Below, in pieces: positions 7,326-28,380 of a DNA stretch of 64,000 nucleotides. The DNA is from a virus. Under the pieces are notes generated by a model. That model was not told the DNA's origin. It searched no databases and saw only the letters and a list, made by a program, of their open reading frames with translations. Numbering within the stretch: the first letter of the stretch is position 1; each line of letters begins with the position of its first letter. Where the stretch lies: positions 1 to 64,000 of the IMG/VR virus record IMGVR_UViG_3300009159_000050; one strand, given 5' to 3'. Both the position numbers and the translations under genes were made by a program.

Positions 7326-7464
7326 ATGACCAGTCTTGGGCTTACCTGCTTATGACCAGTCTTAGGTTCCCCCGCTCATGACTGGTCTTAGGCTCCCCAG
7401 CTCATGACCAGTCTTGTGCATATGCGCCTATGACCATTCTGGGTGCATGCGCTCATGACCAGTC
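7326..7464. repeat. Six 26-bp iterons
   Basis: Copies of ATGACCAGTC begin at 7326, 7352, 7378, 7404, 7430 and 7455, spaced 26, 26, 26, 26 and 25 bases. The third copy reads ATGACTGGTC, the fifth ATGACCATTC. The core GAC-YR-GTC is itself a near palindrome, as expected for a dimeric binding protein. Two more copies 26 bases apart are at 8352 and 8378. Confidence 0.85.
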
Positions 7465-7470: not shown

Positions 7471-7613
7471 CCTCGGGCCCCAAAAAGTTATCCACATGAT
7501 GTAGATCACATCTTAAATCACGCTCAAGTTATCCACATGACCTACATCACATTTCAAAATGTCCGTTTTGTCATAGTTACTGGCTAGTAGATGTCAGACC
7601 CCTCTGCTATAAT
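7471..7613 (+). promoter_or_regulatory. DnaA boxes, CRP-like sites and RecA-NDp-type promoter before 7670
   Basis: Two TTATCCACA boxes (7488, 7529) each overlap a CATGA-N6-TCACA site. The box AATGTCCGTTTT is at 7558-7569. TGTCAG at 7592-7597 and TATAAT at 7608-7613 are spaced as in the actinobacterial RecA-NDp consensus (TGTCRGTG-N8-TANNNT). Confidence 0.7.
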
Positions 7614-7669
7614 ACTTACATACCAAAAAACAAGAGGTAAAGAAATCCTCTAAAGAAAGGTGGTCTCAA

Positions 7670-7855
7670 ATGACTACACTAGTTACTACTAAACAATTCG
7701 TTCTATCATGGACGGGTCTCCATAACCTTAGCGGTTATACATCTTCTAACTTAGGTGGGTTGTTCTCAGATGAACAATCTATAAATGAATACCTTGATCA
7801 AAAGGTAAGCGAAGGATGGACAATCATCCTTGTATCCGTAAAGGAGATAAACTAA
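7670..7855 (+). CDS. Small protein, 61 aa, paralogue of 6925-7107
   Basis: First gene after the putative origin. Shares the TTKQFVLSW start, SSNLGGLF middle and SEGWTIILVSV end with the divergent copy. Ribosome binding site AAAGAAAGG precedes the ATG. As one of the first genes transcribed on both sides of the origin it may act early, but its function is unknown. Confidence 0.75.
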   Translation: MTTLVTTKQFVLSWTGLHNLSGYTSSNLGGLFSDEQSINEYLDQKVSEGWTIILVSVKEIN

Positions 7856-8019
7856 TGAATGCTATTTATACACTTAAATCTATCTGCGGAAAGAATACTT
7901 TCTATGTAGATCCATATGATGTAAATTTTAATCCTAATGGTGCTACTTGTTGCGATAATTGCAAATCTATTTTAATCTGCCGTCAGGCATGGGACTTTCT
8001 CTATAAGGGGGTAAAGTAA
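7855..8019 (+). CDS. Zinc-ribbon protein, 54 aa
   Basis: Starts at the ATG that overlaps the previous stop (TAATG), with AAGGAG 8 bases before. The order CC-DNCK-ILICR gives three or four metal-binding Cys. One of many tiny zinc-ribbon proteins in this operon; may bind nucleic acid or a host protein. Confidence 0.6.
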   Translation: MNAIYTLKSICGKNTFYVDPYDVNFNPNGATCCDNCKSILICRQAWDFLYKGVK

Positions 8020-8192
8020 TGAGCATTGAACTACAAGATACACTTTCTATCTGCCGTCAAATTCGTAACAATGATCGTGATAGTGGAACACACTATCTGC
8101 TAGGTTATCTATGGGCTAACACTTCAGATAAAGAAAAAGAAAGAATCTATAAACTTTTCAAAAAAGATTTTGACGAAATGGAGAATAAATAA
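8019..8192 (+). CDS. Hypothetical helical protein, 57 aa
   Basis: TAATG overlap with the previous gene. A fully helical, charged product with an LSICRQIRNND start and a KEKERIYKLFKKDFDEME end. No family recognised. Confidence 0.55.
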   Translation: MSIELQDTLSICRQIRNNDRDSGTHYLLGYLWANTSDKEKERIYKLFKKDFDEMENK

Positions 8193-8193
8193 A

Positions 8194-8295
8194 ATGGAAA
8201 AAGATATTTTCGGATTTGATAAAGCAATTAACCTTGATCATCTTAATGATGAGCAAATAAAAACTTTAGAAGAAATATTTAAAGACTACAAATAA
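8194..8295 (+). CDS. Tiny protein, 33 aa, paralogue of 11792-11887
   Basis: Begins MEKDIFGFDKAI-L-HL and ends in a helix; the 11792 product has the same start (MEKDLFGFEKAIQLNHL). Two copies, each last in its operon and each under a similar control region, argue it is a real gene. Function unknown. Confidence 0.6.
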   Translation: MEKDIFGFDKAINLDHLNDEQIKTLEEIFKDYK

Positions 8296-8310
8296 ATAAA
8301 AACAAAATTT

Positions 8311-8337
8311 CGCAGAAATAAAAAGCTGCGTTTTTTT
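8311..8337 (+). terminator. Intrinsic terminator
   Basis: CGCAG pairs with CTGCG across a 10-base A-rich loop, followed by seven T. Ends the 7670-8295 operon. Confidence 0.85.
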
Positions 8338-8338
8338 G

Positions 8339-8532
8339 GGTCGGGCCCCAAATGACCAGTCATAGGCGCATAGACCCATGATCAGTCATTTACGTACGTG
8401 TGATCTAATTCACATTTACGGAATGTCCGTTTTATCCCAGTTTATGGTGATAATCAACTTTACATAACATGAGCAAATGTCAGACCCCTATGCTATAATT
8501 CTAGGTATAAACAAAAAGAAAGGAAGTTAAAA
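8339..8532 (+). promoter_or_regulatory. Control module: iterons, CRP box and RecA-NDp-type promoter
   Basis: GGGTCGGGCCCC (8338-8349) then two iterons 26 bases apart (8352, 8378), a perfect CRP/GlxR palindrome TGTGATCTAATTCACA at 8399-8414, the box AATGTCCGTTTT at 8422-8433, and TGTCAG (8478) spaced 10 bases from TATAAT (8494-8499). Confidence 0.7.
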
Positions 8533-8709
8533 ATGACTTCATTAAAAATAAAATGCATAGAGCATAAGCCTATGAAATCTGCTATCTCACAAATTGGAGA
8601 TGAGCAATTTACATTCTGCCAAGAATGTGAAAATAACATTGAGCGTTGGTATAACGATACTGACCCTGAGCGTCTTGCTATGTGGACTGACTGGAAAGTC
8701 AGCCCATAG
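8533..8709 (+). CDS. Zinc-binding protein, 58 aa
   Basis: AGGAAG ribosome binding site before the ATG. A first Cys-x-x-x-His (KCIEHKP) and a second CQEC pair suggest a small treble-clef or zinc-ribbon fold; a Trp-rich acidic tail follows. A lone gene with its own control modules on both sides. Confidence 0.6.
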   Translation: MTSLKIKCIEHKPMKSAISQIGDEQFTFCQECENNIERWYNDTDPERLAMWTDWKVSP

Positions 8710-8821
8710 TGACCAAGATCACATTCCAAATGTCCTAAATGTCCGTTTTTGGATTTGATTTTGTCAGTCCAATCTGCTAAAATAGTTATATAACAAAAAA
8801 AAGAAAAGAAGGTGACAACCA
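8708..8821 (+). promoter_or_regulatory. Control module: CRP-like box and RecA-NDp-type promoter
   Basis: AGTGA-CCAAGA-TCACA at 8708-8723 overlaps the previous stop codon. The box AATGTCCGTTTT is at 8738-8749. TGTCAG (8762-8767) lies 10 bases before TAAAAT (8778-8783). Confidence 0.65.
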
Positions 8822-9043
8822 ATGTCAGCACAAATATACACACCATCAGCCCTATTAGAGGGAAAATACTATCGCTCAATTTCTCGCAAGATTGACGGAA
8901 TTATTCAGGAAGCAGAAATTGCTCCAGAAATTTGGTACGGAGAAAACGATACTGCTTATCGTGTTCGTGTTCGCCCTACCTATAACGGAACAATTCTTCA
9001 CGAAGATTTTTGGGCAGTCGTAGCAGTAAGAAAGGAAAACTAA
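8822..9043 (+). CDS. Hypothetical beta-rich protein, 73 aa
   Basis: Preceded by an AAGAAGGTG ribosome binding site. Predicted beta strands YRVRVRPTY and DFWAVVAVRK suggest a small barrel or SH3-like fold. First of a seven-gene operon to 9928. No family recognised. Confidence 0.55.
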   Translation: MSAQIYTPSALLEGKYYRSISRKIDGIIQEAEIAPEIWYGENDTAYRVRVRPTYNGTILHEDFWAVVAVRKEN

Positions 9044-9044
9044 T

Positions 9045-9239
9045 ATGTACAAACTCAAACTAGAAACTTTCAGCGGAGAAGTTAAAACAATTTCACTTCC
9101 GTCAAAAGGTGCAGTTGCACAATTCATCAACACTTACCCAACACAATTACCAGTTGGCGTATCCGTAAAAGTCGCTTGCGACACCCTTGGAATTACTGGC
9201 ACACTTCGTGGCAGTTTAACACTAGCAAAATCAAACTAA
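9045..9239 (+). CDS. Small protein, 64 aa, paralogue of 6617-6793
   Basis: Aligns end to end with the 58-residue product at 6617-6793 on the other side of the putative origin. Beta-alpha-beta-like layout with a conserved V-x-CD-x-LGI-GTLRGS end. Function unknown. Confidence 0.65.
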   Translation: MYKLKLETFSGEVKTISLPSKGAVAQFINTYPTQLPVGVSVKVACDTLGITGTLRGSLTLAKSN

Positions 9240-9256
9240 GAATAGGAAATAAAATA

Positions 9257-9463
9257 ATGACAAAAATATATCACTCTCTACAATTCGTAACTGAATTAGA
9301 CGAAACACATCCAATCTCTCAGCAACTTCTTGCACTACCTACAATAGATCAGGTCGCTATGCTTGAAGCCATGCTAAAAGAATTGCTTGCTCCACGCATT
9401 CAGTCAACACTTGATGAACTCAACGAGAACAATCACTTCGCAGTATTAAAGGTGGCAGAATAA
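9257..9463 (+). CDS. Hypothetical helical protein, 68 aa
   Basis: Start at ATG 9257 after AATAGGAAA. A helical, acidic product with VAMLEAMLKELLAPRIQ as its core. Overlaps the next ATG (TAATG). No family recognised. Confidence 0.55.
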   Translation: MTKIYHSLQFVTELDETHPISQQLLALPTIDQVAMLEAMLKELLAPRIQSTLDELNENNHFAVLKVAE

Positions 9464-9624
9464 TGAAAACTTGTTTAATAGTTAATTGTGAATCAACTGC
9501 ACTTGTATATTCTGGAATTGACGCATTCATGCTAGGTGGAATCCCTACTGAAACATATTGCTACGATTGCGCTAATGCATACAATCAAATTTCTGCACAT
9601 GTAGAAAAGTTGGTGCAACTATAA
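9463..9624 (+). CDS. Zinc-ribbon-like protein, 53 aa
   Basis: N-terminal C-x4-C (TCLIVNC) and a later CYDC pair, with a Tyr/Gly-rich linker, give a four-Cys metal site. TAATG overlaps at both ends show tight coupling in the operon. Confidence 0.55.
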   Translation: MKTCLIVNCESTALVYSGIDAFMLGGIPTETYCYDCANAYNQISAHVEKLVQL

Positions 9625-9806
9625 TGATGACTAGAAAAGACTATGTAGAAACTGCAAAAATTCTAAATGGATTTCTTGACTATATGGACCCTCACGTTTT
9701 TCAAGATTTAGTTTTTGAATTTAGCGAATGGTTTCTTTCTGACAATCCAAGATTTCATGAAGGTAAATTTTCTGAGGCTTGCTATAAAGTGGAGGTAAGT
9801 ACATGA
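9624..9806 (+). CDS. Hypothetical protein, 60 aa
   Basis: Helical and acidic, with LNGFLDYMDPHVFQDLVFEF and a Trp in EFSEWFLSD. ATG-ATG start overlaps the previous stop. No family recognised. Confidence 0.5.
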   Translation: MMTRKDYVETAKILNGFLDYMDPHVFQDLVFEFSEWFLSDNPRFHEGKFSEACYKVEVST

Positions 9807-9928
9807 GTAGAATTTTAACAACGCTTGTGCAGCTAACTTTATTTCTTGGAGTGCTTGCTTGTTTTCGTTTAATGTGGCAAGATTTAAAAAATGATCTTGC
9901 TGAAATCAAAAACGATTTGCGAAAATAA
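9803..9928 (+). CDS. Single-span membrane peptide, 41 aa
   Basis: Membrane span at about residues 5-24 (LTTLVQLTLFLGVLACF) followed by a charged helix. Start overlaps the previous stop; GGAGG lies just upstream. One of several tiny membrane proteins at operon ends here. Confidence 0.55.
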   Translation: MSRILTTLVQLTLFLGVLACFRLMWQDLKNDLAEIKNDLRK

Positions 9929-10149
9929 ATAAAAAATCCTGAGCACGATTTAAAACTGCTCAACATTCAAAAATGGGGCCCGACCCCCACGGCGTGTCGT
10001 CCACAGGTTATCCACAGGCTTTACGTTGTGATATTACTCACACCCAAATTTTGTCATATTTTGAGATTAAGTGCCTTTGAGAGTTGCTCATGTCAGCCCC
10101 ATAGTGTAGGATATTTATATCAAGTTAATTAAGAAAGAAGGAACCCCCT
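9929..10149 (+). promoter_or_regulatory. Control module with DnaA box, CRP box and RecA-NDp-type promoter
   Basis: A GAGCA/TGCTC stem-loop (about 9938-9959), GGGGCCCGACCCCC, a perfect DnaA box TTATCCACA at 10008-10016, a perfect CRP-type palindrome at 10027-10042 (TGTGA-TATTAC-TCACA), then TGTCAG at 10091-10096 and TAGGAT at 10107-10112 with the same 10-base gap as other RecA-NDp-type sites. Confidence 0.7.
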
Positions 10150-10281
10150 ATGAACGAATGCAAAGTATGTTTTGCTCAGCGTATGAGTATCTCTGCAATA
10201 TCTATCAAGATCAACGAACTATGCGAGCCACACTATCGTGACTGGCAAGATGAAAAGAATATGGGTGAGTACTTTGGGTAA
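10150..10281 (+). CDS. Tiny Cys/His protein, 43 aa
   Basis: N-terminal CKVC and a later C-x2-H (LCEPHY) form a CCCH pattern consistent with one zinc site. AAAGAAGGAA precedes the ATG. First gene of the 10150-11482 operon. Confidence 0.55.
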   Translation: MNECKVCFAQRMSISAISIKINELCEPHYRDWQDEKNMGEYFG

Positions 10282-10282
10282 T

Positions 10283-10414
10283 ATGATGGAAGCCTTATGC
10301 GTTGCATGTAATGAAGATTTGCATGTAGATGGATTTTATTGTTGGTCATGTGGAATTGACACCTACTACTCAGACATGTTAGAATCAGACCTCACCCTAG
10401 ATTGGACAGAATAA
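10283..10414 (+). CDS. Tiny zinc-ribbon protein, 43 aa
   Basis: Two CxxC knuckles, CVAC and CWSC, 12 residues apart, define a classic zinc ribbon. The tail is acidic. ATGATG at the start, so the first Met could be either. Confidence 0.6.
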   Translation: MMEALCVACNEDLHVDGFYCWSCGIDTYYSDMLESDLTLDWTE

Positions 10415-10415
10415 T

Positions 10416-10520
10416 ATGACCCCCTATGACGACTACTATGAAACTGATATGCCTACTGCCGTGGGTTGCTACTGCAAAATAAACTATGTGTGCTCAGAAT
10501 GTAAAGGAAACTATAACTAA
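10416..10520 (+). CDS. Tiny Cys-rich protein, 34 aa
   Basis: CYC and CSEC knuckles with Tyr-rich flanks. Its stop overlaps the next ATG (TAATG). Probably a minimal zinc-binding peptide; function unknown. Confidence 0.5.
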   Translation: MTPYDDYYETDMPTAVGCYCKINYVCSECKGNYN

Positions 10521-10732
10521 TGGAATATGAATATCTAATTACCTGCGCCTATGACGGAAACGCTCCGCATTGGAAGCAACGCTATGAAAACGAATTTGGT
10601 GCATGGGAAAACTTTTTCCTATTTACTGATTGGGGAATGGCTGATGAATACTCCACAGTTAATCTCTACACGCCCACAGGCAAGTGTTACACAAGAAACT
10701 TTTATCGTAGCGGAATGGTGGCAACAAAATGA
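10520..10732 (+). CDS. Hypothetical protein, 70 aa
   Basis: Aromatic-rich alpha/beta product with WENFFLFTDWGMADEYS and RNFYRSG. Overlaps genes on both sides. No family recognised. Confidence 0.5.
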   Translation: MEYEYLITCAYDGNAPHWKQRYENEFGAWENFFLFTDWGMADEYSTVNLYTPTGKCYTRNFYRSGMVATK

Positions 10733-10872
10733 TAAAGATTGAAGCAGAAGTAATTACATGGAAGCCTAATGATAAAAATTCTTTCATTGACAATATGACT
10801 CAAGATGAGTTAGCAATATTTGAAGCAGACATACAAGACGCTATTGACGGCGTAATAGAAGATTGGAAATAA
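10729..10872 (+). CDS. Hypothetical acidic protein, 47 aa
   Basis: ATGA overlap with the previous stop. A short strand (IKIEAEVITW) and an acidic helix (DELAIFEADIQDAI). No family recognised. Confidence 0.5.
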   Translation: MIKIEAEVITWKPNDKNSFIDNMTQDELAIFEADIQDAIDGVIEDWK

Positions 10873-10876
10873 TATA

Positions 10877-11182
10877 ATGGGATCAGTAACCGCACTAGGA
10901 ATTAAAGATACAGTACTTGATTTGGAAACTCAGATTCTTTATCATCTCAAGGGTAATCACTATCCTCCAGTACCTGCAGAAATGGTCGCACCATGCATTG
11001 AAGCCATTGACGCGTACTATGATGAAGATTGGGATAGAATGATTGACATGCCTATGGTTGGTAGTTTTCAGATTCTCTATAAGGGAAGCAAGCAAGCGCC
11101 TGCATGGGCTATCGTAGAACAACACCACCTATCATGGTTTATTGAGCCAGTAGCATACTCTGATGAGGAGGAGGAATCCTAA
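10877..11182 (+). CDS. Hypothetical protein, 101 aa
   Basis: Mixed alpha/beta protein with PMVGSFQILYKGSKQAPAW and an acidic tail EEEES. Its stop overlaps the next ATG. No family recognised. Confidence 0.5.
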   Translation: MGSVTALGIKDTVLDLETQILYHLKGNHYPPVPAEMVAPCIEAIDAYYDEDWDRMIDMPMVGSFQILYKGSKQAPAWAIVEQHHLSWFIEPVAYSDEEEES

Positions 11183-11247
11183 TGGCAATACTATTGACTT
11201 CAGTCACAGTTATATTTGTAGTAAAGATGATTTCACAGGGCAGATAA
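11182..11247 (+). CDS. Tiny membrane peptide, 21 aa
   Basis: Almost entirely one hydrophobic helix (ILLTSVTVIFVVKMI). GAGGAGGA lies just before the ATG, which argues that it is translated. Such peptides recur at 12848 and 20683. Confidence 0.45.
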   Translation: MAILLTSVTVIFVVKMISQGR

Positions 11248-11248
11248 A

Positions 11249-11482
11249 ATGAGTGCTACAATAAATGGCATGGAACTAATAAAAGCTGATGTGCTAACTG
11301 CAGATGCAATTGAGATTGGTGATCTAATCTCTTTTGATGATGATATCGTTGAAGTAATTGCTATTGATGTTGATTCTACTGGCGATGTATATAGCATTCA
11401 AGTTAGCAACGACTTTGGTGAAACACAAACAGTTGACTTTGATTTTGATGAAGAAGTTGACTGGTACGTTTATATAGACTAA
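11249..11482 (+). CDS. Highly acidic beta-rich protein, 77 aa
   Basis: About a quarter of residues are Asp or Glu; the strand pattern DLISFDDDIVEVIAIDV and a tail FDFDEEVDWYVYID suggest a small beta fold. The extreme acidity resembles DNA-mimic proteins of phages, but this is only a resemblance. Last gene of its operon. Confidence 0.5.
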   Translation: MSATINGMELIKADVLTADAIEIGDLISFDDDIVEVIAIDVDSTGDVYSIQVSNDFGETQTVDFDFDEEVDWYVYID

Positions 11483-11583
11483 AGTGGGGCCCGAGGCCCC
11501 TGTGAGCTATATCACATTTACGTAGGTTGATATTTTTTTCTATATATGATAGGATTAGAATAATCCAAACGAAAGGTCAACTA
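11483..11583 (+). promoter_or_regulatory. Control module with CRP box and sigma70-like promoter
   Basis: Palindrome GGGGCCCGAGGCCCC (11486-11500) is directly followed by a perfect CRP/GlxR site TGTGAGCTATATCACA (11501-11516). TTGATA (11527-11532), 17 bases, TAGGAT (11550-11555). The CRP site centre is about 53 bases before the expected transcript start. Confidence 0.7.
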
Positions 11584-11790
11584 ATGAAAATTTATGAAGT
11601 TACTTGTATTCACTATGAAATTTGTGGCTCTACTGAAACTTTTAATGAATCAGAATATGAAATCTATGGTGATGATTTCACCTGTGCTGAATGTTTCAAT
11701 CAACTTGAAATGTTTTCTCATGGCTGGCGTGATATTGCTTCAGATCACATGATGACTCGCATGGCTGATGCGGAGATGGGAGATTTGTAA
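11584..11790 (+). CDS. Cys-rich acidic protein, 68 aa
   Basis: Start at ATG 11584 after GAAAGG. Contains CIHYEIC and CAEC, a four-Cys metal site. The tail is Met/Asp-rich. First gene of a two-gene operon with 11792. Confidence 0.55.
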   Translation: MKIYEVTCIHYEICGSTETFNESEYEIYGDDFTCAECFNQLEMFSHGWRDIASDHMMTRMADAEMGDL

Positions 11791-11791
11791 A

Positions 11792-11887
11792 ATGGAAAAA
11801 GATTTATTTGGTTTTGAAAAAGCAATTCAACTTAACCACTTAACAAAAGAACAAATTGATGAATTGTTAAAAATGCTTGAAATATAA
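11792..11887 (+). CDS. Tiny protein, 31 aa, paralogue of 8194-8295
   Basis: Same start (MEKDLFGFEKAI) and same place, last gene before a CRP-box module, as its paralogue. The two copies differ enough to exclude a recent duplication. Confidence 0.6.
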   Translation: MEKDLFGFEKAIQLNHLTKEQIDELLKMLEI

Positions 11888-11963
11888 GAGGCCGAGGCCC
11901 CATGTGACTTAGCTCACATTTAAGAGATTTGATATTTTTCCCCATATCTGGTAAGATTATTAC
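11888..11963 (+). promoter_or_regulatory. CRP box and leaderless promoter
   Basis: GGCCGAGGCCCC then a perfect TGTGACTTAGCTCACA at 11903-11918. TTGATA (11929-11934), 17 bases, TAAGAT (11952-11957), then 6 bases to the ATG at 11964. CRP centre about 53 bases upstream of the start, the same as at 11501. Confidence 0.75.
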
Positions 11964-12110
11964 ATGAGCCAGAAAAAGACCCCTGAAGAATTACGTATCC
12001 TTATGGAATTACGTAGATCTAATGCTGCCTCAGCTATCCCCAACAAAAAGAAATATGACAGAAAGAAATGTCAGTCGTACCTGCTACAATTAAAGAAAGA
12101 AAGCGAGTAA
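11964..12110 (+). CDS. Basic helical protein, 48 aa, leaderless
   Basis: The ATG is 6 bases after TAAGAT, so the mRNA likely starts at the initiation codon. Product is Lys/Arg-rich (KKKYDRKKCQSYLLQLKKE), consistent with nucleic-acid binding. Followed 5 bases later by the GP88-type gene. Confidence 0.55.
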   Translation: MSQKKTPEELRILMELRRSNAASAIPNKKKYDRKKCQSYLLQLKKESE

Positions 12111-12115
12111 CCCCC

Positions 12116-12838
12116 ATGACCAAATTACTTAGATCAAAAGATCGCAAAGTCGCTAACCTAGTTACAACTAATGGAAAACAAGCAAGCATGGCTAATACTT
12201 TTGGCCTACCTGCAGGCAAGGCGTACTCATGCCCTGGCGCTACTAGTGTGTGCGAGAGTGTATGCTATGCAGGCAAACTAGAAAAGGTATTCCCTAGTGT
12301 AAAGAAAAACCTATTGCACAACTGGGCATTGCTCAAGGACGCAGACTTAGATACTATGCAAACCTTAATCTCAGAGATGATTGAAGAGTTTAAGACAGAA
12401 TGCGTTAAGCGTAATGCACCTATGCTATTTCGTATCCACTGGGACGGCGATTTCTTTAATGATCAGTATACACAGGCATGGAAGAATGTCATCCTTAACA
12501 ATACAGACATTCAATTCTGGGTATACACACGTGTTAATTCTGCCGCAGTAATGCTAAAGGATATTGCTAATCTATCTTTATACTATTCTACAGATAGTGA
12601 GAATAAGTCTATTGGCCTTACCCTGAAAAAAGATCATGGCGTACGTCTTGCTTACCTTGCTAAGAATTTTGCAATTGGTCAGGCAGACATGAAAGAGATG
12701 ATTGGTCGCCCTGGTGCTAAGTGTCCAGAGAATCTCAAGGCTATTCCCCTTATCTCTCAAAAGGGCTCCGCTTGCGTATCCTGCTCATTGTGCGTATACT
12801 CTAAGAGCGACATAGTATTCTCTGCAACAAAAAAATAA
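12116..12838 (+). CDS. GP88-family protein with C-terminal Cys cluster, 240 aa
   Basis: Start chosen at ATG 12116, which begins the conserved part. The region TNGKQASMANTFGLPAG, then CPGAT-VC-SVCYAG, and later FRIHWDGDFFN and FWVYTR match the actinophage 'gene product 88' family of unknown function. The C-terminus has CP and a CVSCSLCVY cluster that looks like an iron-sulphur or zinc site. A radical-type or RNA-related chemistry has no direct evidence. Its control region carries a CRP box. Confidence 0.7.
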   Translation: MTKLLRSKDRKVANLVTTNGKQASMANTFGLPAGKAYSCPGATSVCESVCYAGKLEKVFPSVKKNLLHNWALLKDADLDTMQTLISEMIEEFKTECVKRNAPMLFRIHWDGDFFNDQYTQAWKNVILNNTDIQFWVYTRVNSAAVMLKDIANLSLYYSTDSENKSIGLTLKKDHGVRLAYLAKNFAIGQADMKEMIGRPGAKCPENLKAIPLISQKGSACVSCSLCVYSKSDIVFSATKK

Positions 12839-12847
12839 AGGAGATAA

Positions 12848-12910
12848 ATGGACATATATGTAGTCTTATCTTTCATAGGGCTATTATTGTTCCTCATGAC
12901 AAAAAAATAA
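12848..12910 (+). CDS. Tiny membrane peptide, 20 aa
   Basis: AAGGAG (12838-12843) is well placed before the ATG. The product is a single hydrophobic helix (VVLSFIGLLLFLM) ending in two Lys. Function unknown. Confidence 0.45.
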   Translation: MDIYVVLSFIGLLLFLMTKK

Positions 12911-13017
12911 TGTGACCTAAATCACAGTCCAAATAGTGAGATTTTTAGGAAATGGATTTGATATTTCTTAGATTTTTTGCTACACTTAATATAGTACCAA
13001 CTACAAAGGAGAAACAA
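12911..13017 (+). promoter_or_regulatory. CRP box and sigma70-like promoter before 13018
   Basis: A perfect TGTGACCTAAATCACA (12911-12926) directly follows the previous stop. TTGATA (12958-12963), 17 bases, TACACT (12981-12986). The CRP centre is about 74 bases before the expected start, two helical turns further than at 11501 and 11903. Confidence 0.7.
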
Positions 13018-13185
13018 ATGACGGTATCAACAGCAACATACAAGGTGGGCGACCTCTACACTTCACAGAAGTCAAAGGTAACAGGAACAATCTTGGAAAT
13101 CTCACCAACCGCAAATGACACAGTTCGTGTTAAGTTAGATGTAAATGGCATGACACGCTGGACAACATGGAAGGCTAGTTCATAA
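13018..13185 (+). CDS. Hypothetical beta-barrel-like protein, 55 aa
   Basis: AAAGGAG precedes the ATG. Strands YKVGDLYT, VTGTILEISP and TVRVKLDVNG followed by TRWTTW suggest a small OB- or SH3-like barrel. No family recognised. Confidence 0.55.
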   Translation: MTVSTATYKVGDLYTSQKSKVTGTILEISPTANDTVRVKLDVNGMTRWTTWKASS

Positions 13186-13289
13186 CTAGTTAGACAGTCA
13201 TTCCTGAGCATGAATTAAAAAGGCTCAACTTAATGTCAGTCCCACCTACTATAATATAAATAACCCACCAAAGAAAAGAGAAAATAAAA
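13186..13289 (+). promoter_or_regulatory. Stem-loop and RecA-NDp-type promoter
   Basis: A copy of the CCTGAGCATGA...GGCTC stem-loop (about 13204-13227) and then TGTCAG (13234-13239), 10 bases, TATAAT (13250-13255). No CRP palindrome is present here. Confidence 0.65.
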
Positions 13290-13715
13290 ATGGCAACAAG
13301 AAGCAAAGCAATCTCAGTAAAGATCGCAACACCAAAGGTAATCAAGGCACTAGAAGCATCACTTGCTAAACTAGAAGCAGACTACGCATCACAAGAAGCA
13401 AATGAAGCAAAGTATCAGAAGGCGTATGAGAAGTGGAAGAAAGACCTTATTGACTATGCAGTAGCAAATATCAAAAAGGCAGAAAACTTCCGTACTAACT
13501 ATCGCTCATGGTCAAACAATCTCAACATTGATTTTGATTTAGCGGTATCAGAAAAGGATCTACCAAAAGAGCCTACTAAGGATTTTGAGACACTTCATCA
13601 CAGTAACTATCGTGAGCAGAAGCAAGAGATGGAAAACGCAATTCGTATTCTCAAGATGACAGATGAGGAAGTAGTTTCCGCATCAACTTATCAAGCGGTT
13701 GCTCGTTATCTCTAA
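13290..13715 (+). CDS. Coiled-coil protein, 141 aa
   Basis: Residues about 12-60 form a heptad-like charged helix (IKALEASLAKLEADYASQEA) and the protein is helical almost throughout. Single gene under its own RecA-NDp-type promoter. No family recognised; a scaffold or DNA-binding accessory role cannot be told apart. Confidence 0.6.
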   Translation: MATRSKAISVKIATPKVIKALEASLAKLEADYASQEANEAKYQKAYEKWKKDLIDYAVANIKKAENFRTNYRSWSNNLNIDFDLAVSEKDLPKEPTKDFETLHHSNYREQKQEMENAIRILKMTDEEVVSASTYQAVARYL

Positions 13716-13851
13716 CTAACTTAGGGGGCAGTTAAAGTCCTGAACCCTAACGACCTGAGTAAGTCGCAAAACTGCTCCCCGCAAGGGTCTTTGACAAATG
13801 TCAGTGGCCAGTAGTATACTTAAACTAACCAACAAACAGAAAGAGGCCCCC
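13716..13851 (+). promoter_or_regulatory. Structured leader region with RecA-NDp-type promoter
   Basis: GGGGGCAGTT (about 13723) can pair with AACTGCTCCCC (about 13770-13780). TTGACA (13791-13796) and TGTCAG (13799-13804) both precede TATACT (13815-13820); TGTCAGTGG matches the RecA-NDp consensus best of all copies. Confidence 0.7.
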
Positions 13852-14265
13852 ATGGACCAGACAGTAACAGTAGTAAATGCAACAGAAGACTTTCTTCGTG
13901 ATTCCCTAGCAAAAGCAACTCTTCGTGTTGCACAACTAGAGGAGCAGATTCAGAAAGTAACTCAGCGATCATATGTTGATTCTGCTAACAAAAACCATAT
14001 GATTGACGCAATGAAAGAATGGACCCTTAGCGAATTAGAAAACCTTTCGCTTGCACAAGAACATGCAGAAGCAATTGCAGAAATTATGGGATTTGAACTA
14101 ACAACAGAATTTGAGGTTGAAGTTACAGTTACATATGCAATTACAGTTAATGCAGTCAATGAAGAAGAAGCGCAGAACTTAATTCATGATATTGATTTTG
14201 ATTCAGTATCAGAGCCCCAAGGCGTAACTTATTTGTCATCCAGTGTTGACAGAATAGATATTTAG
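13852..14265 (+). CDS. Hypothetical protein, 137 aa
   Basis: Start at ATG 13852 after AGAGG. N-terminal helix (LRVAQLEEQIQKV) and C-terminal ferredoxin-like segment FEVEVTVTYAITVNAVNEEE with a DR-x-DI end. That strand-helix-strand pattern is common in small phage proteins. Function unknown. Confidence 0.55.
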   Translation: MDQTVTVVNATEDFLRDSLAKATLRVAQLEEQIQKVTQRSYVDSANKNHMIDAMKEWTLSELENLSLAQEHAEAIAEIMGFELTTEFEVEVTVTYAITVNAVNEEEAQNLIHDIDFDSVSEPQGVTYLSSSVDRIDI

Positions 14266-14477
14266 TAGGGGGCTACTAATAGATCTAAGCATATCTATAA
14301 ACTGCTTATTCAGCTCCCGCAAAATTTGGGGCTCGGGCCCCATGTGACCAATATCACACGTGTCTTTACGAGACATTAAAAAAATGTCCGATTTGCCCCA
14401 TATTTAACTAGCCTGCCTTGCATTTGTCAGTCTATCCTGATATACTTAAATCTCAACAACAACAAGGAGAAAAACTC
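14266..14477 (+). promoter_or_regulatory. CRP box and RecA-NDp-type promoter before DUF932 gene
   Basis: A hairpin-prone segment with GGGGGCT and AGCTCCC, GGGGCTCGGGCCCC (14328-14341), a perfect TGTGACCAATATCACA (14343-14358), AATGTCCGATTT (14383-14394), TGTCAG (14425-14430), 10 bases, TATACT (14441-14446). Confidence 0.75.
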
Positions 14478-15494
14478 ATGGCACATGACCTAGAAATACA
14501 AAACGGAAAAACATCTTTTGCTTCTTTCCGTGAACCTGCATGGCATGGATTGGGTACCGTCTTCACTGAGGAAAAGACCACACTAGAAATGTTAGATCTT
14601 GCTAACCTTTCTAACTGGAACGTTCGTCTTGAAGATCTACCAACCCCTGCACACTTAACAAGCGACAAGGAATACCAATATGTCGTACGCACCAACCCCA
14701 CTGATAGCGCCCAGACTGATATTCTTGGTGTCGTTGGTGAACGCTATCACGTATTGCAGAATGAGGACCTATTCTCATTTGGTGATAACATCCTAGACGG
14801 CGGTGGCCGTTGGGAGACTGCTGGCTCAATCAAGGGTGGACGTGTTGTCTTTGGTGCCCTTGCACTAGAGCGTGAAACAATCCTAGACCCTAGTGGCGTT
14901 GCAGATAAGGTGAAGACCTATTTGCTCATCAACACATCACATGACGGCTCAATCGCAATTCAAGCAAGCATAACACCAGTTCGTGTTGTGTGCGCTAACA
15001 CTCTCAATCTTGCACTTAACACCACACGCAAGAAGAATGGTGTCAAGCAATCATTCAAGATTCGTCACACTCAGACTGCCAATGGTAAGGTGCAAATTGC
15101 ACGTGAGACTCTTGGCATGGCTAATAAGTACATGGACGAATTTGATCTCATGGCTAAGGCTATGATTGAGAAGGAAGTCAGTGCTAAGACTTTCTACGAT
15201 ATCATTCTTGCTGCATATCCTAAGCCAGAAAAAGATGCTAAGGGTGCCGTAAAGAAGTGGGAGAATAAAGTTGATATCATCAACGATATTTACACTGGCG
15301 AATTTAATGGCATGATTGCTGGTAATGCATGGGGTGCATTTAATGCACTTACTGAGCGCCTTGATTGGTACCGCACATCTCGCGGTGGTAACAATGAAAG
15401 CATGCTTGCAAGCGCAAGCGGATTTGACCCTGCAATCAACGCAGAGAAAAATCGTTTGCTAAAGGTTGTACAAAATACCTTGCAACTAGTATAA
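14478..15494 (+). CDS. DUF932 (TIGR03299-type) phage/plasmid protein, 338 aa
   Basis: Start at ATG 14478 after AAGGAG. The start MAHDLEIQNGKTSFAS, then EPAWHGLGT near residue 20, GVVGERYHVLQNED and CANTLNLAL are hallmarks of the DUF932 family carried by phages and plasmids. The family function is not established; its gene is often near replication or anti-restriction loci. It stands alone, between a RecA-NDp-type promoter and tRNA-Asp. Confidence 0.85.
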   Translation: MAHDLEIQNGKTSFASFREPAWHGLGTVFTEEKTTLEMLDLANLSNWNVRLEDLPTPAHLTSDKEYQYVVRTNPTDSAQTDILGVVGERYHVLQNEDLFSFGDNILDGGGRWETAGSIKGGRVVFGALALERETILDPSGVADKVKTYLLINTSHDGSIAIQASITPVRVVCANTLNLALNTTRKKNGVKQSFKIRHTQTANGKVQIARETLGMANKYMDEFDLMAKAMIEKEVSAKTFYDIILAAYPKPEKDAKGAVKKWENKVDIINDIYTGEFNGMIAGNAWGAFNALTERLDWYRTSRGGNNESMLASASGFDPAINAEKNRLLKVVQNTLQLV

Positions 15495-16052: not shown

Positions 16053-16240
16053 TGTGGACTAAACATGAGTATCTTTGTACTAATTGTGATACCCTTTTTG
16101 AAATCACAACCAGCAATGACCTGGTGATTCAACCCAACTGTATCTGTGATCAGCCTCACATTATTAGGATAAACAGATATGATGTGACGCAACTCACAGA
16201 AGATCACCTTGACTCTATTGGCAAAGTTCACTACAATTAA
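16052..16240 (+). CDS. Zinc-ribbon protein, 62 aa, containing two CRP palindromes
   Basis: Two knuckles (CTNC and CIC) give a zinc ribbon. Two perfect CRP-type sequences lie inside the coding region: TGTGATCAGCCTCACA at 16145-16160 and TGTGACGCAACTCACA at 16183-16198, 38 bases apart and just before the promoter of the next gene. Confidence 0.6.
   Translation: MWTKHEYLCTNCDTLFEITTSNDLVIQPNCICDQPHIIRINRYDVTQLTEDHLDSIGKVHYN
16209..16237 (+). promoter_or_regulatory. Leaderless promoter for 16244
   Basis: TTGACT (16209-16214), 17 bases, TACAAT (16232-16237), 6 bases, ATG. The CRP-type site at 16183-16198 is centred about 53 bases upstream of the ATG, the same distance as at 11501 and 11903. Confidence 0.7.
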
Positions 16241-16703: not shown

Positions 16704-17348
16704 ATGCCAAACTGGGTATATAACGGACTAACTGTAGAAGGCTCTGAGTCATCTGTCCTTAAGTTAAAAGAGCAGGTAGGTAAGCCTATCTCTGTGCCAG
16801 TCGTTGACTGGAAGACTAATGAACTAAAGATAGAGACCAACGATAGCCCTATCTTCTCATACTGGAACATCATAGCCCCTACTGACCTAGATGCCTATCC
16901 TAAACAAACTGATCATTCATTAGATAAGCCATATGAGGGTGATGACTGGTATTCTTGGAATAATCGTAACTGGGGAGTTAAATGGGATGCAAGCAATCCT
17001 TACATTGGTGGAGAGCAAGTCAATGGTGAGAACTATGTTATTCAGTATAACTTTGAATCCCCTTGGGGAATTCCAGATGAGGCTCTAATTAATCTATCAT
17101 CTCAGTACCCTGATTTACTATTTACTTTAGAGTATGAGGAAGAGACTGGCTGGGGTGGAGAGCATGAGTACCTTAGAGGTGAGCAACTTGAAGGTATGAG
17201 TTATAACTGGAAGTGCCCAGAGTGCGACTACCTCCATGCAGGCGATCCTGATGACTTATACATAGAGAAGCACGAAGAGTTGGTCTGCCCTACATGTCAG
17301 TGGCCTGTGCTAGAATTGATGAAAACACCAAAGGAAGAGGTAAAATGA
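16704..17348 (+). CDS. Api92-like (YubB ferredoxin-like) protein with zinc ribbon, 214 aa
   Basis: The start MPNWVYNGLTVEGSE and the central NNRNWGVKWDASNP and FESPWGIP match the Api92-like/YubB ferredoxin-fold family of phages and plasmids. A C-terminal CPEC...CPTC zinc ribbon (about 175-208) is added. The family function is unknown. ATGA overlap couples it to 17345. Confidence 0.75.
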   Translation: MPNWVYNGLTVEGSESSVLKLKEQVGKPISVPVVDWKTNELKIETNDSPIFSYWNIIAPTDLDAYPKQTDHSLDKPYEGDDWYSWNNRNWGVKWDASNPYIGGEQVNGENYVIQYNFESPWGIPDEALINLSSQYPDLLFTLEYEEETGWGGEHEYLRGEQLEGMSYNWKCPECDYLHAGDPDDLYIEKHEELVCPTCQWPVLELMKTPKEEVK

Positions 17349-17647
17349 AAACGGCAGATAGAGATAAACTACACAAATGTCTAGAGATCTTACACACTAC
17401 AGAACTAGGCCTACCCATGGTATGGCTATGGACATGGAGTGCCATTGTAGATATACTAGATGACAAGACATATCATGCACAGGTCAACCTTGATACTGTA
17501 TGGAATAAACTCTGTGAGGATGTAGCCGCAGGCAAAGGCTTCTCTCTAGAGTATGGGGCAGAGCAGCACTGGGATGATGTAACAGACTGGATGCACGAGA
17601 ACGAATTCATTATAGAGCCAGACCAAGAAGAAGAGGAGCAAGACTAA
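17345..17647 (+). CDS. Hypothetical protein, 100 aa
   Basis: Start at ATG 17345 overlapping the previous stop. Contains the LGLP-M/I-x-x-x-W pattern shared with the 18301 and 34858 products (a short LGLP turn followed by a hydrophobic strand), then acidic helices. It may be a distant member of that small family. Confidence 0.5.
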   Translation: MKTADRDKLHKCLEILHTTELGLPMVWLWTWSAIVDILDDKTYHAQVNLDTVWNKLCEDVAAGKGFSLEYGAEQHWDDVTDWMHENEFIIEPDQEEEEQD

Positions 17648-21441: not shown

Positions 21442-21549
21442 ATGAAAGAATGTAGCCATAAATGGTATATGCGTGATCCAGGAATTCAGTGTGTTAAATG
21501 TTTTATAGTGTGGGATATTAGTATGGAAAAGGAGATTGAGGATTTATGA
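21442..21549 (+). CDS. Tiny Cys/His protein, 35 aa, leaderless
   Basis: ECSHKW and CVKC groups resemble a zinc knuckle. ATGA overlap couples it to the deacetylase-like gene, which has GGAGATTGAGG upstream. Confidence 0.55.
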   Translation: MKECSHKWYMRDPGIQCVKCFIVWDISMEKEIEDL

Positions 21550-22448
21550 AAGATGCAATTATTATTCATTCCCCAGAGTATGCGAACTGGGTCTTTGACC
21601 CTAAGCATCCAACGCAGGGGCGTAGATTTATGCTGGGGCATGAGCAGGTAATCCTTAACGGAAAAGACCGCAACTTAAGCATTGAAGAGCTTCTTCCAGA
21701 GGTTCCACACAGTGATGACCTATTGATATGCCACGATCCAATTTATATCCACGATGTAACTGTAAAAGGTTTATCAAATGAATGGTATGGCCAACGCCAT
21801 GATCTAGGAGACCTTGCAAAGTTATTTGTAGGTGGAACTCTTACTGCCCTTAATGCGCTACTTGAGGCAAAGACTAAGTTAGCCATTCACCTTCCAGGAG
21901 CTAAGCACCATGCCATGCGAGACCACTCAAGCGGTTTCTGCGTATTCGGTGATTTCGCTATCGCTGCTACTAAAGCAACACTGCTTGGTAAAAAAGTTGC
22001 AGTCTTTGATTGCGATGCCCATCATGGTGATGGCACTGAAGCGCTAACAAAATCTAATCCAAATATTTTGACATTTTCTGTACACCAATATGGAATCTTT
22101 CCAGGTACAGGATTGAACTCAGATTTAGATAAGAAAGCTTTTAACTTTCCTCTTGCCTCTGGAACTGATGATGAAGGATTAACTGATGCGGTTGAATCAT
22201 TTCTTAATGTCTGCCTTGATTTTAAGCCAGACTTAATCTTTATTGCTTGCGGTGCTGATGCACTAGCAGATGACCCACTTTCTGGATTAAACTACACTGT
22301 GGGTGGTTATGAAATGGCTATGCGTAGTATCCGAATGGTTTACCCAGACACACCTATACTGTTTGGAGGCGCTGGAGGCTATCTGCCAGACGACCAGACT
22401 CCACACCTGTGGGGCAAAGCATCTCTGGCTTTAGTCAAACCAATGTGA
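21546..22448 (+). CDS. Histone-deacetylase-family hydrolase, 300 aa
   Basis: Full-length class I/II HDAC-like (AcuC / acetylpolyamine amidohydrolase) domain. The His pair H121-H122 in GAKHHAMRD, the charge-relay and zinc motif DCDAHHGDGT (155-164), the second zinc Asp in CGADALADDP (about 236-244) and the C-terminal GGAGGY with the catalytic Tyr are all present, so it should be active. It would remove acetyl groups from acetylated lysines or polyamines. Second gene after a leaderless promoter. Such genes are unusual in phages. Confidence 0.85.
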   Translation: MKDAIIIHSPEYANWVFDPKHPTQGRRFMLGHEQVILNGKDRNLSIEELLPEVPHSDDLLICHDPIYIHDVTVKGLSNEWYGQRHDLGDLAKLFVGGTLTALNALLEAKTKLAIHLPGAKHHAMRDHSSGFCVFGDFAIAATKATLLGKKVAVFDCDAHHGDGTEALTKSNPNILTFSVHQYGIFPGTGLNSDLDKKAFNFPLASGTDDEGLTDAVESFLNVCLDFKPDLIFIACGADALADDPLSGLNYTVGGYEMAMRSIRMVYPDTPILFGGAGGYLPDDQTPHLWGKASLALVKPM

Positions 22449-25287: not shown

Positions 25288-26244
25288 TTGGCTAAAATTG
25301 TTTTTCTTGGAAACTTTGAAGTTTCATATAGCAGTGAGAATCATCACGCTAAAAGTTTAGAATCTCTTGGACATACCGTTGTAAAGTTGCAAGAAAAAAA
25401 GGCAAAGACCCATGTAATTCTTGATCAGGCACTTGACTCTGATCTATTTATTTGGGTTCATACTCATGGCTGGGAAACAGTTGGCAAGATCACAATGGAC
25501 GATGTTCTGCTCAGACTAAAGAGTGCTGGAATACCAACAATGACATACCACCTTGACCTATGGTTTGGTCTTGAAAGACAAAAGGATCTTGAACAAGATA
25601 ACTTTTATAAAACCATTGGTCACTTCTTTACAGTAGATAAGCTAATGGCTGATTGGTTTAATGAAAATACAGAGGTCAAAGGACATTTCGTTCCTGCAGG
25701 GGTATACGATAAGGAATGCTACATTCACCCAGATTATGACACACAAAACTTTAAGTATGATGTTATTTTTGTTGGCAGCAAAGGATATCATCATGAGCAT
25801 AAGTATCGTCCAGAATTAATTGATTTCTTAAGAAAGACATACGGAAAAAGATTTCTACATGTTGGTGGAGATGGTGATACTGGAACTGTTCGTGGTGATG
25901 AATTAAATAAGATCTATGCACAAAGCAAAGTAGCTGTAGGAGATAGCCTTAACATTAACTTTAACTATCCTTACTATACTAGTGATAGGTTGTTTGAAAG
26001 TACTGGTCGTGGTGGTTTTACCATATACCCAGAAATTAAAGGACTAGATGAATACTTTATGCCTGATGAAGTAGTATTTTACAATCATGGAAATTTAGAT
26101 GACCTAAAAAACAAAATAGATCATTACCTTGAGAATTCTTTAGTAAGAGAAAGAATTAGATTAAATGGACACAATCGCACAAAGAAAGAGCACACCTATG
26201 TGCATCGTTGGGAAACTATTATGAATGAGTTAGGAATAAAATGA
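25288..26244 (+). CDS. CgeB-like glycosyltransferase, 318 aa, TTG start
   Basis: Begins at TTG 25288 after AAAGGGG; an ATG at 25265 is in another frame. IVFLGNFEVSYSSENHH at the start, HLDLWFG near 95, then YDVIFVGSKGYHHE and a C-terminal SDRLFESTGRGGF match the CgeB/DUF3880-type GT-B transferases. TATAAT is at 25256-25261. It opens an operon of nine overlapping genes to 32163 that likely builds or alters a surface glycan. Confidence 0.8.
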   Translation: MAKIVFLGNFEVSYSSENHHAKSLESLGHTVVKLQEKKAKTHVILDQALDSDLFIWVHTHGWETVGKITMDDVLLRLKSAGIPTMTYHLDLWFGLERQKDLEQDNFYKTIGHFFTVDKLMADWFNENTEVKGHFVPAGVYDKECYIHPDYDTQNFKYDVIFVGSKGYHHEHKYRPELIDFLRKTYGKRFLHVGGDGDTGTVRGDELNKIYAQSKVAVGDSLNINFNYPYYTSDRLFESTGRGGFTIYPEIKGLDEYFMPDEVVFYNHGNLDDLKNKIDHYLENSLVRERIRLNGHNRTKKEHTYVHRWETIMNELGIK

Positions 26245-27170
26245 AAAGTATAGCAATAACAGGTGCAACTGGACTATTAGGTTCACACTTATCAAACCAC
26301 TACCTATCACTAGGCTATAATGTTTTTGTTCTATTAAAAGACGAGCATAGTCGCACAGAACTTTCTCCAAATGTAAACAAGGTTTATGGAAGTATTAATA
26401 ATAAAACAGACATTGATTTTTTTATAGAAAAGTCAAGACCAGATTACTTTATCCATCTTGCAGCACAGACTCAGGCATATGACTCAATCAAGTATCCATA
26501 CAATACTTTTTATACCAATCTTGTTGGTACATTGAATGTACTTGAATCATTAAGAGAATACAAAAATTGCAAGTCAATCATTGTTGCTTCTAGCGATAAA
26601 GCCTACGGGGAGTTAGTAAATGATGAATACTTTGAAGATCATATTCTTAATGGCATATATCCATATGATGCATCCAAAACTATTACAGACATAATGTGTA
26701 ATTCATATAGGAATACATATGATATGCCTGTTGTAACTACCCGTGCCTGCAACATTTATGGAACTGGTGACAATAATATTCAAAGATTGGTGCCTGGAGT
26801 TGTGAAGGCTTATAAGGATGGCGCATTGTTTACTATCAGAAATGGTGGTAGAGATATTAGAGAATACATTAATGTTAAGGATGTTGTTTCAGCATACGCT
26901 AACATACTTACATATGCAGAAACAGTTAATAATATTCCATCCTTTAACATATCCTCTGGTGAAAGATATTCTACACTTGAAGTATTTAACCTTATCCAAG
27001 ACTCAATTGGTAAAGAAGTTAAGCATGAGATCATTGAGAGTGATGGATTTGAAATTAAAAAACAGTTTATGAACTCATCTTTGCTACAAGAAAAAACTGG
27101 ATGGAAGTCGGAGCATACTATGAAAGACAGTATGAAAGAAATAGTTGATTTTTATATGGAGTCTAAATGA
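26241..27170 (+). CDS. NAD-dependent sugar epimerase/dehydratase, 309 aa
   Basis: Extended SDR: GATGLLGSH (8-16) binds NAD; IHLAAQTQ, ASSDKAYGE and YPYDASK (catalytic Tyr and Lys) follow, then RACNIYGTGD. SSDKAYGE and PYDASK are most like CDP-glucose 4,6-dehydratases, so a nucleotide-sugar 4,6-dehydratase is the best guess. ATGA overlap with the gene before. Confidence 0.85.
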   Translation: MKSIAITGATGLLGSHLSNHYLSLGYNVFVLLKDEHSRTELSPNVNKVYGSINNKTDIDFFIEKSRPDYFIHLAAQTQAYDSIKYPYNTFYTNLVGTLNVLESLREYKNCKSIIVASSDKAYGELVNDEYFEDHILNGIYPYDASKTITDIMCNSYRNTYDMPVVTTRACNIYGTGDNNIQRLVPGVVKAYKDGALFTIRNGGRDIREYINVKDVVSAYANILTYAETVNNIPSFNISSGERYSTLEVFNLIQDSIGKEVKHEIIESDGFEIKKQFMNSSLLQEKTGWKSEHTMKDSMKEIVDFYMESK

Positions 27171-27676
27171 ATATAAATTTTGGTTGCGGTAGCATTCAGC
27201 CTTCTGACTGGACTAATATAGATCTTGATCCAGAGTTTAATACCGAGCATAGAGACTTAGAACTGATACCCGATAGCTCTTGTGACATTCTTGTTTGTCA
27301 TGCAATAGTTTGCTGTGTTAAATATCACGACATTGAAAAGGTATTGTTAGAATTTTATAGAGTACTAAAACCAGGAGGAGTTGTAAGGATTAGCCTTCCA
27401 GATATTGTTTCTGGGTTTGATGCATATAAAAATAATAATATTAATTTCTTTCCTAATTCTGAAGATGATTTGGATAAGCGTTTCTCTGCATGGCTAACTT
27501 GGTATTCACAATCAGCATCTCTGCTAACAGATAAAGCGCTACAATATAAACTACAGGATTGTGGGTTTAACTTTGTATCAAAAACAGAGTTTAAACAAAC
27601 AGTATATTCAAATGAAAAAATTTATGAACTTGATACAAGGGAACATGAATTCTATTTTGTGGAGGCAAAAAAATGA
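27167..27676 (+). CDS. SAM-dependent methyltransferase, 169 aa
   Basis: FGCGSIQPSDWTNIDLD (SAM-binding loop and following acidic strand) and RVLKPGGVVRISLPD are typical of short class I methyltransferases (COG4627-like) in glycan clusters. Overlaps neighbours on both sides. Confidence 0.8.
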   Translation: MNINFGCGSIQPSDWTNIDLDPEFNTEHRDLELIPDSSCDILVCHAIVCCVKYHDIEKVLLEFYRVLKPGGVVRISLPDIVSGFDAYKNNNINFFPNSEDDLDKRFSAWLTWYSQSASLLTDKALQYKLQDCGFNFVSKTEFKQTVYSNEKIYELDTREHEFYFVEAKK

Positions 27677-28380
27677 CAGAGATGGTTAAGACAATACTAA
27701 ATGGAGAATTTGAAATAATTCTTCCAAAGCATCGTGCAGAGAGACCAGAGTGGCACACAGAAGCAGGTTGGGAAAAGTTAAGGCTTAAATCAATGCACAA
27801 TAACATTGGTAAGGGCGATGTTGTTTATTATGTTGGTGCAGAAGAAGGTGAGTTTCCAGCGCTTTGTCAAATGTGGGGAGCAGAAGTTGTATTGTTTGAA
27901 CCTAATCCTAAAGTATGGTCACACCTTCCACAAACTTGGAAATCAAATAACTTAGAACTTCCAATGGCATGCATTCCTGGATTTGCTTCTGATAAAGTAA
28001 ATGAGCTTGCAAGAATTTATTATAATGAATGGCCTCCAGAGGCTGATGACGTTATTGAAGCAGCACATGGATTTAAAGAATTATACCTTGAAGGTGATTC
28101 ATATGGTCAAATTACTATAGATTCTTGTGTATATGATCACGGTATTAAGCCACCTACCGCCATTTCATTAGACGTAGAGGGTAGCGAATGGAGGGTCCTA
28201 GGAGGGGCTGAGAGTGTCCTTAAACAGTATAAGCCTAAGATTTGGCTATCTGGACACCCTGAATTTATGTTACAGCAATGGGATGAATCCTTATATAATC
28301 TTAGACAATGGATAAAAAATTTAGGATATAAAGAAAAATTGCTTGATTACCAACACGAAGTTCATTTGTTCTATGAGTAG
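27673..28380 (+). CDS. FkbM-like methyltransferase, 235 aa
   Basis: VYYVGAEEGEFPALCQMWG (SAM motif I), VVLFEPNP and a late SLDVEGSEW match the FkbM family, which methylates sugar hydroxyls. In the same operon as sugar-modifying genes. Confidence 0.8.
   Translation: MTEMVKTILNGEFEIILPKHRAERPEWHTEAGWEKLRLKSMHNNIGKGDVVYYVGAEEGEFPALCQMWGAEVVLFEPNPKVWSHLPQTWKSNNLELPMACIPGFASDKVNELARIYYNEWPPEADDVIEAAHGFKELYLEGDSYGQITIDSCVYDHGIKPPTAISLDVEGSEWRVLGGAESVLKQYKPKIWLSGHPEFMLQQWDESLYNLRQWIKNLGYKEKLLDYQHEVHLFYE

Follow-up and report, generated by a model that had tools for sequence, protein, structure and literature searches.

A PafBC-type promoter class with phased CRP-type palindromes in a lineage of putative freshwater actinophages

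The analysed window comprises nucleotides (nt) 1-64000 of the 89,966-nt IMG/VR record IMGVR_UViG_3300009159_000050. One 10-kb block of this sequence carries nine copies of a promoter-like element, TGTCAG-N10-TANNNT, which resembles promoters that respond to the bacterial repair regulator PafBC (Table 1). The genome encodes a DnaE-like polymerase, a DnaB-like helicase, RecA, and WhiB, GP88 and DUF932 proteins. Orthologues of the DUF932 protein are up to 98% identical in IMG/VR and 54% identical in Streptomyces phages (e.g., Riptide and Samisti12). Megablast of the region against the named phages yielded zero matches. At the protein level, the closest named relatives are Streptomyces phages, and we therefore consider the virus to be an actinophage. 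The operon block with the TGTCAG promoters is probably early, judging from its many small open reading frames (ORFs) and from the position of the DUF932 gene in the Streptomyces relatives, roughly 1.2 kb away from the end of the genome (e.g., in Samisti12, a member of the Stanwilliamsviridae).

A scan of both strands of the complete record returned nine matches to TGTCAG-N10-TANNNT between positions 7592 and 17295, throughout on the + strand, and none on the - strand or outside this range. Dinucleotide shuffles lead to an expectation of 0.86 matches by chance, and the reversed pattern, scanned as a control over the 89,966 nt, had 0 matches. Seven of the sites had been listed in an earlier note on this DNA, and each coordinate proved exact upon rescanning; the sites at 12069 and 17295, which had been overlooked, complete the true set of nine. 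The note had placed the motif just before the first gene of an operon, and indeed the -10 box ends 25-56 nt ahead of the ATG at all nine sites. Mechanical calling produced artefactual ORFs at 12068, 13798, and 17294, where the ATG within ATGTCAG was taken for a start codon. Because the first of these start codons falls inside the promoter, the start of the GP88-family gene was set further downstream (Table 1).

Promoters of the RecA-NDp type have the consensus tTGTCRgtg-8 nt-TannnT (PMC5656591) and represent the PafBC-dependent class of mycobacteria and other actinobacteria (PMC5656591, PMC8223512, PMC11804915). In PafBC, a known regulator of repair in bacteria, PafB touches the -26 element and PafC touches domain 4 of sigma; single-stranded DNA (ssDNA) was reported in 2025 to be its activating ligand (PMC11804915). 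The first base of the viral TGTCAG is 16 nt ahead of the -10 hexamer, which places TGTCAG at -28 to -23 if the hexamer is at -12 to -7. Hexamer, spacing, and -26 position are thus as published, and the element is found at repair genes of actinobacteria that have PafB and PafC (see below), so that the assignment to the RecA-NDp (PafBC) class is well supported. The agreement with TGTCRGTG-N8-TANNNT claimed before holds for the hexamer and the spacer; the full form is present at only two of the nine sites (13799 and 17295). Mismatch scanning with the full consensus is uninformative, because 32 sites with up to two mismatches were found and 32.9 were expected, which is no enrichment. The enrichment signal resides in TGTCAG and the exact 10-nt spacer. 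Promoter-like sites of the ordinary type (TTGACA/TTGATA-N16-18) coexist, both inside the block and elsewhere in the genome, and TGTCAG is therefore the mark of a subset of the phage promoters, not of all. The site recognized by ClgR differs from this motif. ClgR, named as a protein once proposed for this promoter class (PMC5656591), was set aside as reader of the motif, since later literature assigns it to PafBC.

Conservation was analysed in 160 related IMG/VR loci, which were collected by protein homology alone, without regard to the motif. These contain 1259 forward matches with a spacer of 10 after TGTCAG, followed by 352 for spacer 16 and 179 for spacer 5. We take most of the spacer-16 matches to represent these same promoters, with -10 boxes similar to TATAATATAAAT. 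In a motif-free scan of the 160 loci, TGTCAG with spacer 10 ranked first among 73,116 hexamer-spacer pairs (678 observed, with a median of 22 across spacers); after its self-overlaps, the best pair was the TTGACA/CTTGAC group at 17-18. This all-pairs scan replaced one seeded on TGNTATAAT, which was dropped because most TGTCAG promoters have TATACT/TATGAT-like -10 boxes. Across IMG/VR, TGTCAGTG-N5-TGNTATAAT occurs in at least 120 stretches, compared to 16 when the spacer is one base longer. Among the matches listed, 111 of 120 loci have proteins in common with this phage. Many of the loci contain 10-18 sites, which are almost exclusively on a single strand. The lineage appears to be a large, widespread family of freshwater viruses that infect actinobacteria.

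The non-redundant viral consensus is A-W-W-TGTCAG-T-S-S-N4-TGN-TATAAT. This degree of conservation has to be weighed against the trivial explanation that the sites arose by recent duplication of one intergenic repeat and have no regulatory meaning. While some flanks are alike (those of the sites at 7592 and 8478 have GACCCCT-TGCTATAAT in common), 535 copies with less than 50% ungapped flank identity have nothing but the two boxes and the distance between them in common, and sites are retained in distant relatives. We consider the chance of such an origin to be negligible.

When 84,980 species genomes were searched, a single relative of the DUF932 protein was encountered, on a 4.7-kb contig of a metagenome-assembled genome from Actinomycetota with a size of about 1.3 Mb. 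Small genomes and the freshwater context suggest that the order of small-genome Actinomycetota linked in this way is Nanopelagicales. In the linked order, each of the 18 genomes tested has proteins with WYL and WCX domains, mostly encoded by two adjacent genes; the link between phage and order is this one binned contig. The adjacent genes of genome G012 match PafB/PafC structures (PDB 7p5x, 9fnd, 6sj9) and adjoin TrmI, which is also next to the PafB-like gene of genome G001, and the segment RMFERDKxELRxLGI in PafB from the linked order is nearly identical to that of the mycobacterial PafB chain. The actual host of this phage may be expected to carry PafBC as well. In the linked order, recA has TGTCAG-N10-TANNNT in front of it, and a LexA box directly follows or overlaps the motif. 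The motif is also found ahead of a DinB-like gene and of DnaQ-like exonucleases, so that there it has the appearance of a damage promoter. In leaderless form, the motif gave about 140 matches in 101 genomes, compared to about five for the reversed control.

Among the loci of the linked order that were read, the most common leaderless gene behind a PafBC-type promoter codes for a conserved protein (about 65 aa) with MIIDCDSC at its N-terminus; others code for a DnaQ-like exonuclease, DUF3263, and Rce1-like proteins. In genome G016, six TGTCAG-N10-TANNNT sites, partly divergent, are clustered within 2.6 kb (C1:820000-828500) beside genes without a Pfam match, possibly a damage-inducible island or a prophage remnant.

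The host data bear on two further interpretations. TGTCAG might be read by a phage-encoded protein, or by another host factor, that is like PafB in its binding site only. In favor of such a reader are the many small early proteins without a Pfam or PHROG match and the WhiB-like protein of the phage. However, hexamer, spacing, and flanking bases are the same as at host recA and other repair genes (T after TGTCAG at a frequency of.65 and then G/C-G/C in the viral consensus, TGTCAG-T(.71)-G(.66)-G in the host), and six bases together with an exact spacer are unlikely to agree by coincidence. In addition, the 19,037 ORFs from the phage and its 160 relatives include no PafB/PafC homologue. We consider a different reader improbable. 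Alternatively, the sites might act as decoys, with 9-18 copies per genome titrating PafBC off the host's few promoters and thereby blunting the damage response. The copy numbers are compatible with this (the element has about 5-10 matches in each host genome, nine here, and up to 18 in the locus of one relative), but decoys need neither a nearby start codon nor a good -10 box, and all sites in the window are promoter-like in both respects. We rate the decoy function as very improbable.

Sites of the CRP/GlxR type have the form TGTGA-N6-TCACA. Nine such palindromes were found, all confined to the block with the TGTCAG promoters (Table 1). While the earlier note was well founded as to the promoter class, these phased palindromes had escaped it. 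Among the relatives, the core GTGA-N6-TCAC lies within 200 nt of 403 of the 812 unique TGTCAG promoters. The distances between palindrome center and -10 box peak at 42, 52, 62, 72, and 83, which corresponds to a helical phasing with a period of 10.5 bp (R=0.72, n=131) and thus to one helical face. The same phase is seen for palindromes at the ordinary -35 promoters that these phages also have. In the linked order, a CRP-family helix-turn-helix domain scored above the cut-off in 17 of the 18 genomes, and the palindromes may be bound by a CRP-family protein.

In the upstream regions of the DUF932 gene from 80 relatives, TGTCAG without TTGAC is present in 67, TTGAC without TGTCAG in five, both in two, and neither in six, several of which hold a variant of TGTCAG that differs at one or two bases. 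The -26 and -35 elements tend to replace each other at this gene, which is the outcome predicted by sigma adaptation. We consider it likely, with a probability of roughly 70%, that the nine sites are sigma-A promoters at which host PafBC replaces the -35 contact, with assistance from a CRP-family activator. The host PafBC heterodimer would bind TGTCAG at -28 to -23 through PafB, and PafC would hold sigma domain 4, so that the -35 contact would be substituted by PafBC. The CRP-family activator would provide additional input from the same helical face at many of these promoters. Transcription of the operons could rise when ssDNA originates from resection of the incoming linear genome, from replication, or from breakdown of host DNA. 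Architecture and conservation of the promoters are observations; PafBC binding, CRP binding, timing, trigger, and a PafBC-bearing real host are inferred.

Several observations weigh against this interpretation. The match of the -10 box to its consensus is 5.0 of 6 for viral compared to 3.4 for host sites, an extended -10 is present in 62% of the viral and 19% of the host sites, and 17% of the viral sites have a -35 box with at least 5/6 matches (background 2%). The mean best -35 match at viral TGTCAG sites is 3.30 of 6, compared to 2.75 after shuffling. The final G of the consensus TGTCRGTG is found in only half of the 535 non-redundant viral sites (G 51%, C 36%), compared to 66% in the host; in the window, TG directly follows TGTCAG at two of nine sites. 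The inverse relation of TGTCAG and TTGAC at the DUF932 gene (Fisher p=3.5e-4) is based on a test that ignores shared ancestry. The Streptomyces phage relatives that were examined do not use the TGTCAG class as a group, even though their hosts are actinobacteria. Finally, the binned contig, which is the sole representative of the family in the host genome set, has a TTGACA promoter and no TGTCAG site, so that we can only infer the host of the TGTCAG-bearing clade.

Because the viral -10 boxes, unlike those of the host, are near consensus and often extended, PafBC may be a booster rather than a switch; it may even be dispensable, with the viral promoters firing alone. The sites would then be constitutive extended -10 sigma-A promoters, at which TGTCAG of the PafBC class only boosts transcription and damage gating does not occur. 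The assignment to PafBC is common to this explanation and the one favored here, and the two differ in the dependence on PafBC. Constitutive activity is consistent with the residual -35 boxes at some viral sites and with the identical phasing of CRP-type palindromes at ordinary -35 promoters. It does not account well for TGTCAG and its 10-nt spacer, which seem to carry weight, as they are retained in very many relatives and as their absence tends to coincide with a consensus -35 box. We regard largely constitutive promoters as possible but somewhat doubtful.

If the favored explanation, PafBC in place of the -35 contact, is extended to the physiology of infection, the early operons would form a damage regulon. 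Early expression would be gated by ssDNA-activated host PafBC, set off by a resected incoming genome or by broken-down host DNA, together with the CRP-family activator, and the alarm of the cell would be the start signal of the phage. We propose this tentatively and consider it somewhat less likely than not. The promoter class itself has been described before. In open-access PMC papers, we found no report on phage promoters of the PafBC class, nor on a phage lineage that uses them systematically in combination with phased CRP-type sites. Should the viruses depend on PafBC, infection control would come to include the damage response, and freshwater phages of a large group would be linked to ssDNA and possibly to cAMP as two signals from the host. 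More than 1000 natural promoters would become available for the dissection of sigma adaptation (spacing, -26 sequence, -35 trade-off), and the motif could serve as a sequence hallmark for spotting the lineage in metagenomes.

Further repeated elements are found near the promoters. ATGTCCG(A)NTTT occurs upstream of TGTCAG promoters at 7559, 8423, 8739, and 14384 (+) and at 7286 and 15650 (-), and its preferred distances to TGTCAG in the relatives are 23/24, 33/34, and 40/41 nt. As CGGACA is also present in early intergenic DNA of Samisti12, this may be a regulator or terminator element of the phage lineage. Five copies of TGACCAGTC are located at 7327-7464 and 8353, four of which lie together in a short array that closely precedes the first TGTCAG promoter. 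DnaA boxes (TTATCCACA) are found beside this array at 7488 and 7529, and further on at 10008. Array and DnaA boxes are possibly a replication origin or a repressor array. Elsewhere in the window are genes for a WhiB-like transcription factor, which is an actinophage marker (35130-35414, -; PF02467, E 1.1e-10), for a protein with an N-terminal part matching a proteasome subunit family (42490-43011, -; PF00227, E 1.7e-5), and for a histone-deacetylase-like protein (21546-22448, +), as well as a cluster for sugar-modifying enzymes (epimerase, methyltransferases, glycosyltransferases; 25288-32163, +).

Table 1. Putative promoters, palindromes, and genes in the promoter block of the window.
Feature	Position	Strand	Remarks
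PafBC-type promoter TGTCAGACCCCTCTGCTATAAT	7592..7613	+	ahead of ORF 7670-7855
PafBC-type promoter TGTCAGACCCCTATGCTATAAT	8478..8499	+	ahead of ORF 8533-8709
PafBC-type promoter TGTCAGTCCAATCTGCTAAAAT	8762..8783	+	ahead of ORF 8822-9043 and following
PafBC-type promoter TGTCAGCCCCATAGTGTAGGAT	10091..10112	+	ahead of ORF 10150-10281 and following
PafBC-type promoter TGTCAGTCGTACCTGCTACAAT	12069..12090	+	ahead of GP88-family gene; absent from earlier note
PafBC-type promoter TGTCAGTCCCACCTACTATAAT	13234..13255	+	ahead of ORF 13290-13715
PafBC-type promoter TGTCAGTGGCCAGTAGTATACT, full TGTCRGTG form	13799..13820	+	ahead of ORF 13852-14265; TTGACA also present, 18 nt before -10
PafBC-type promoter TGTCAGTCTATCCTGATATACT	14425..14446	+	ahead of DUF932 gene
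PafBC-type promoter TGTCAGTGGCCTGTGCTAGAAT, full form	17295..17316	+	ahead of ORF 17345-17647; absent from earlier note
CRP-type palindrome TGTGATCTAATTCACA	8399..8414	.	center 87 nt before -10 of 8478 promoter
CRP-type palindrome core GTGACCAAGATCAC	8708..8723	.	center 62 nt before -10 of 8762 promoter
CRP-type palindrome TGTGATATTACTCACA	10027..10042	.	center 72 nt before -10 of 10091 promoter
CRP-type palindrome	11501..11516	.	-35 type promoter at 11527 (TTGATA-N17-TAGGAT), center 41 nt before -10
CRP-type palindrome	11903..11918	.	-35 type promoter at 11929 (TTGATA-N17-TAAGAT), center 41 nt before -10
CRP-type palindrome	12911..12926	.	TTGATA-N17-TACACT at 12958, center 62 nt before -10
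CRP-type palindrome TGTGACCAATATCACA	14343..14358	.	center 90 nt before -10 of 14425 promoter
CRP-type palindrome	16183..16198	.	TTGACT-N17-TACAAT at 16209, center 41 nt before -10; second palindrome at 16145
GP88-family protein	12116..12838	+	Pfam PF17338
DUF932 protein	14478..15494	+	PF06067

The Stanwilliamsviridae phages of Streptomyces (Samisti12 and the related Riptide) are similar in having the DUF932 gene near the genome end, with many small genes read toward it, and CGGACA motifs in intergenic DNA. They do not share the TGTCAG-N10 class: there is one TGTCGG-N10-TAGACT in Samisti12 and none in Riptide, and many intergenic regions resemble ordinary -35/-10 promoters with TAGACT as -10 box.

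The viral sites share with PafBC-dependent promoters the hexamer, the 10-nt spacer between TGTCAG and TANNNT, and the -26 position. Many of them have the following TG/TC, and they may also resemble the class in lacking a consistent -35 box. In the order to which the phage family is linked, the same element is located ahead of recA and further repair genes. They differ in being located ahead of probable early operons, in having a -10 box that is near consensus and often extended, and in the phased CRP-type palindrome that accompanies many of them. Viral sites have leaders with a ribosome-binding site, whereas leaderless starts are common for host sites. No LexA box was detected in the flanks of the nine promoters in the window, while some host copies have an overlapping one. 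The palindrome consensus and its placement upstream of the -10 box with a periodicity of 10-11 bp are as in activation of the CRP/GlxR type; the difference is the combination with a PafBC-type -26 element in one promoter. A parallel is found in phage and prophage genes under LexA/SOS control, with which a phage likewise exploits the damage response of its host. These are controlled by release of a repressor, whereas the candidate system described here would be based on an activator, PafBC.

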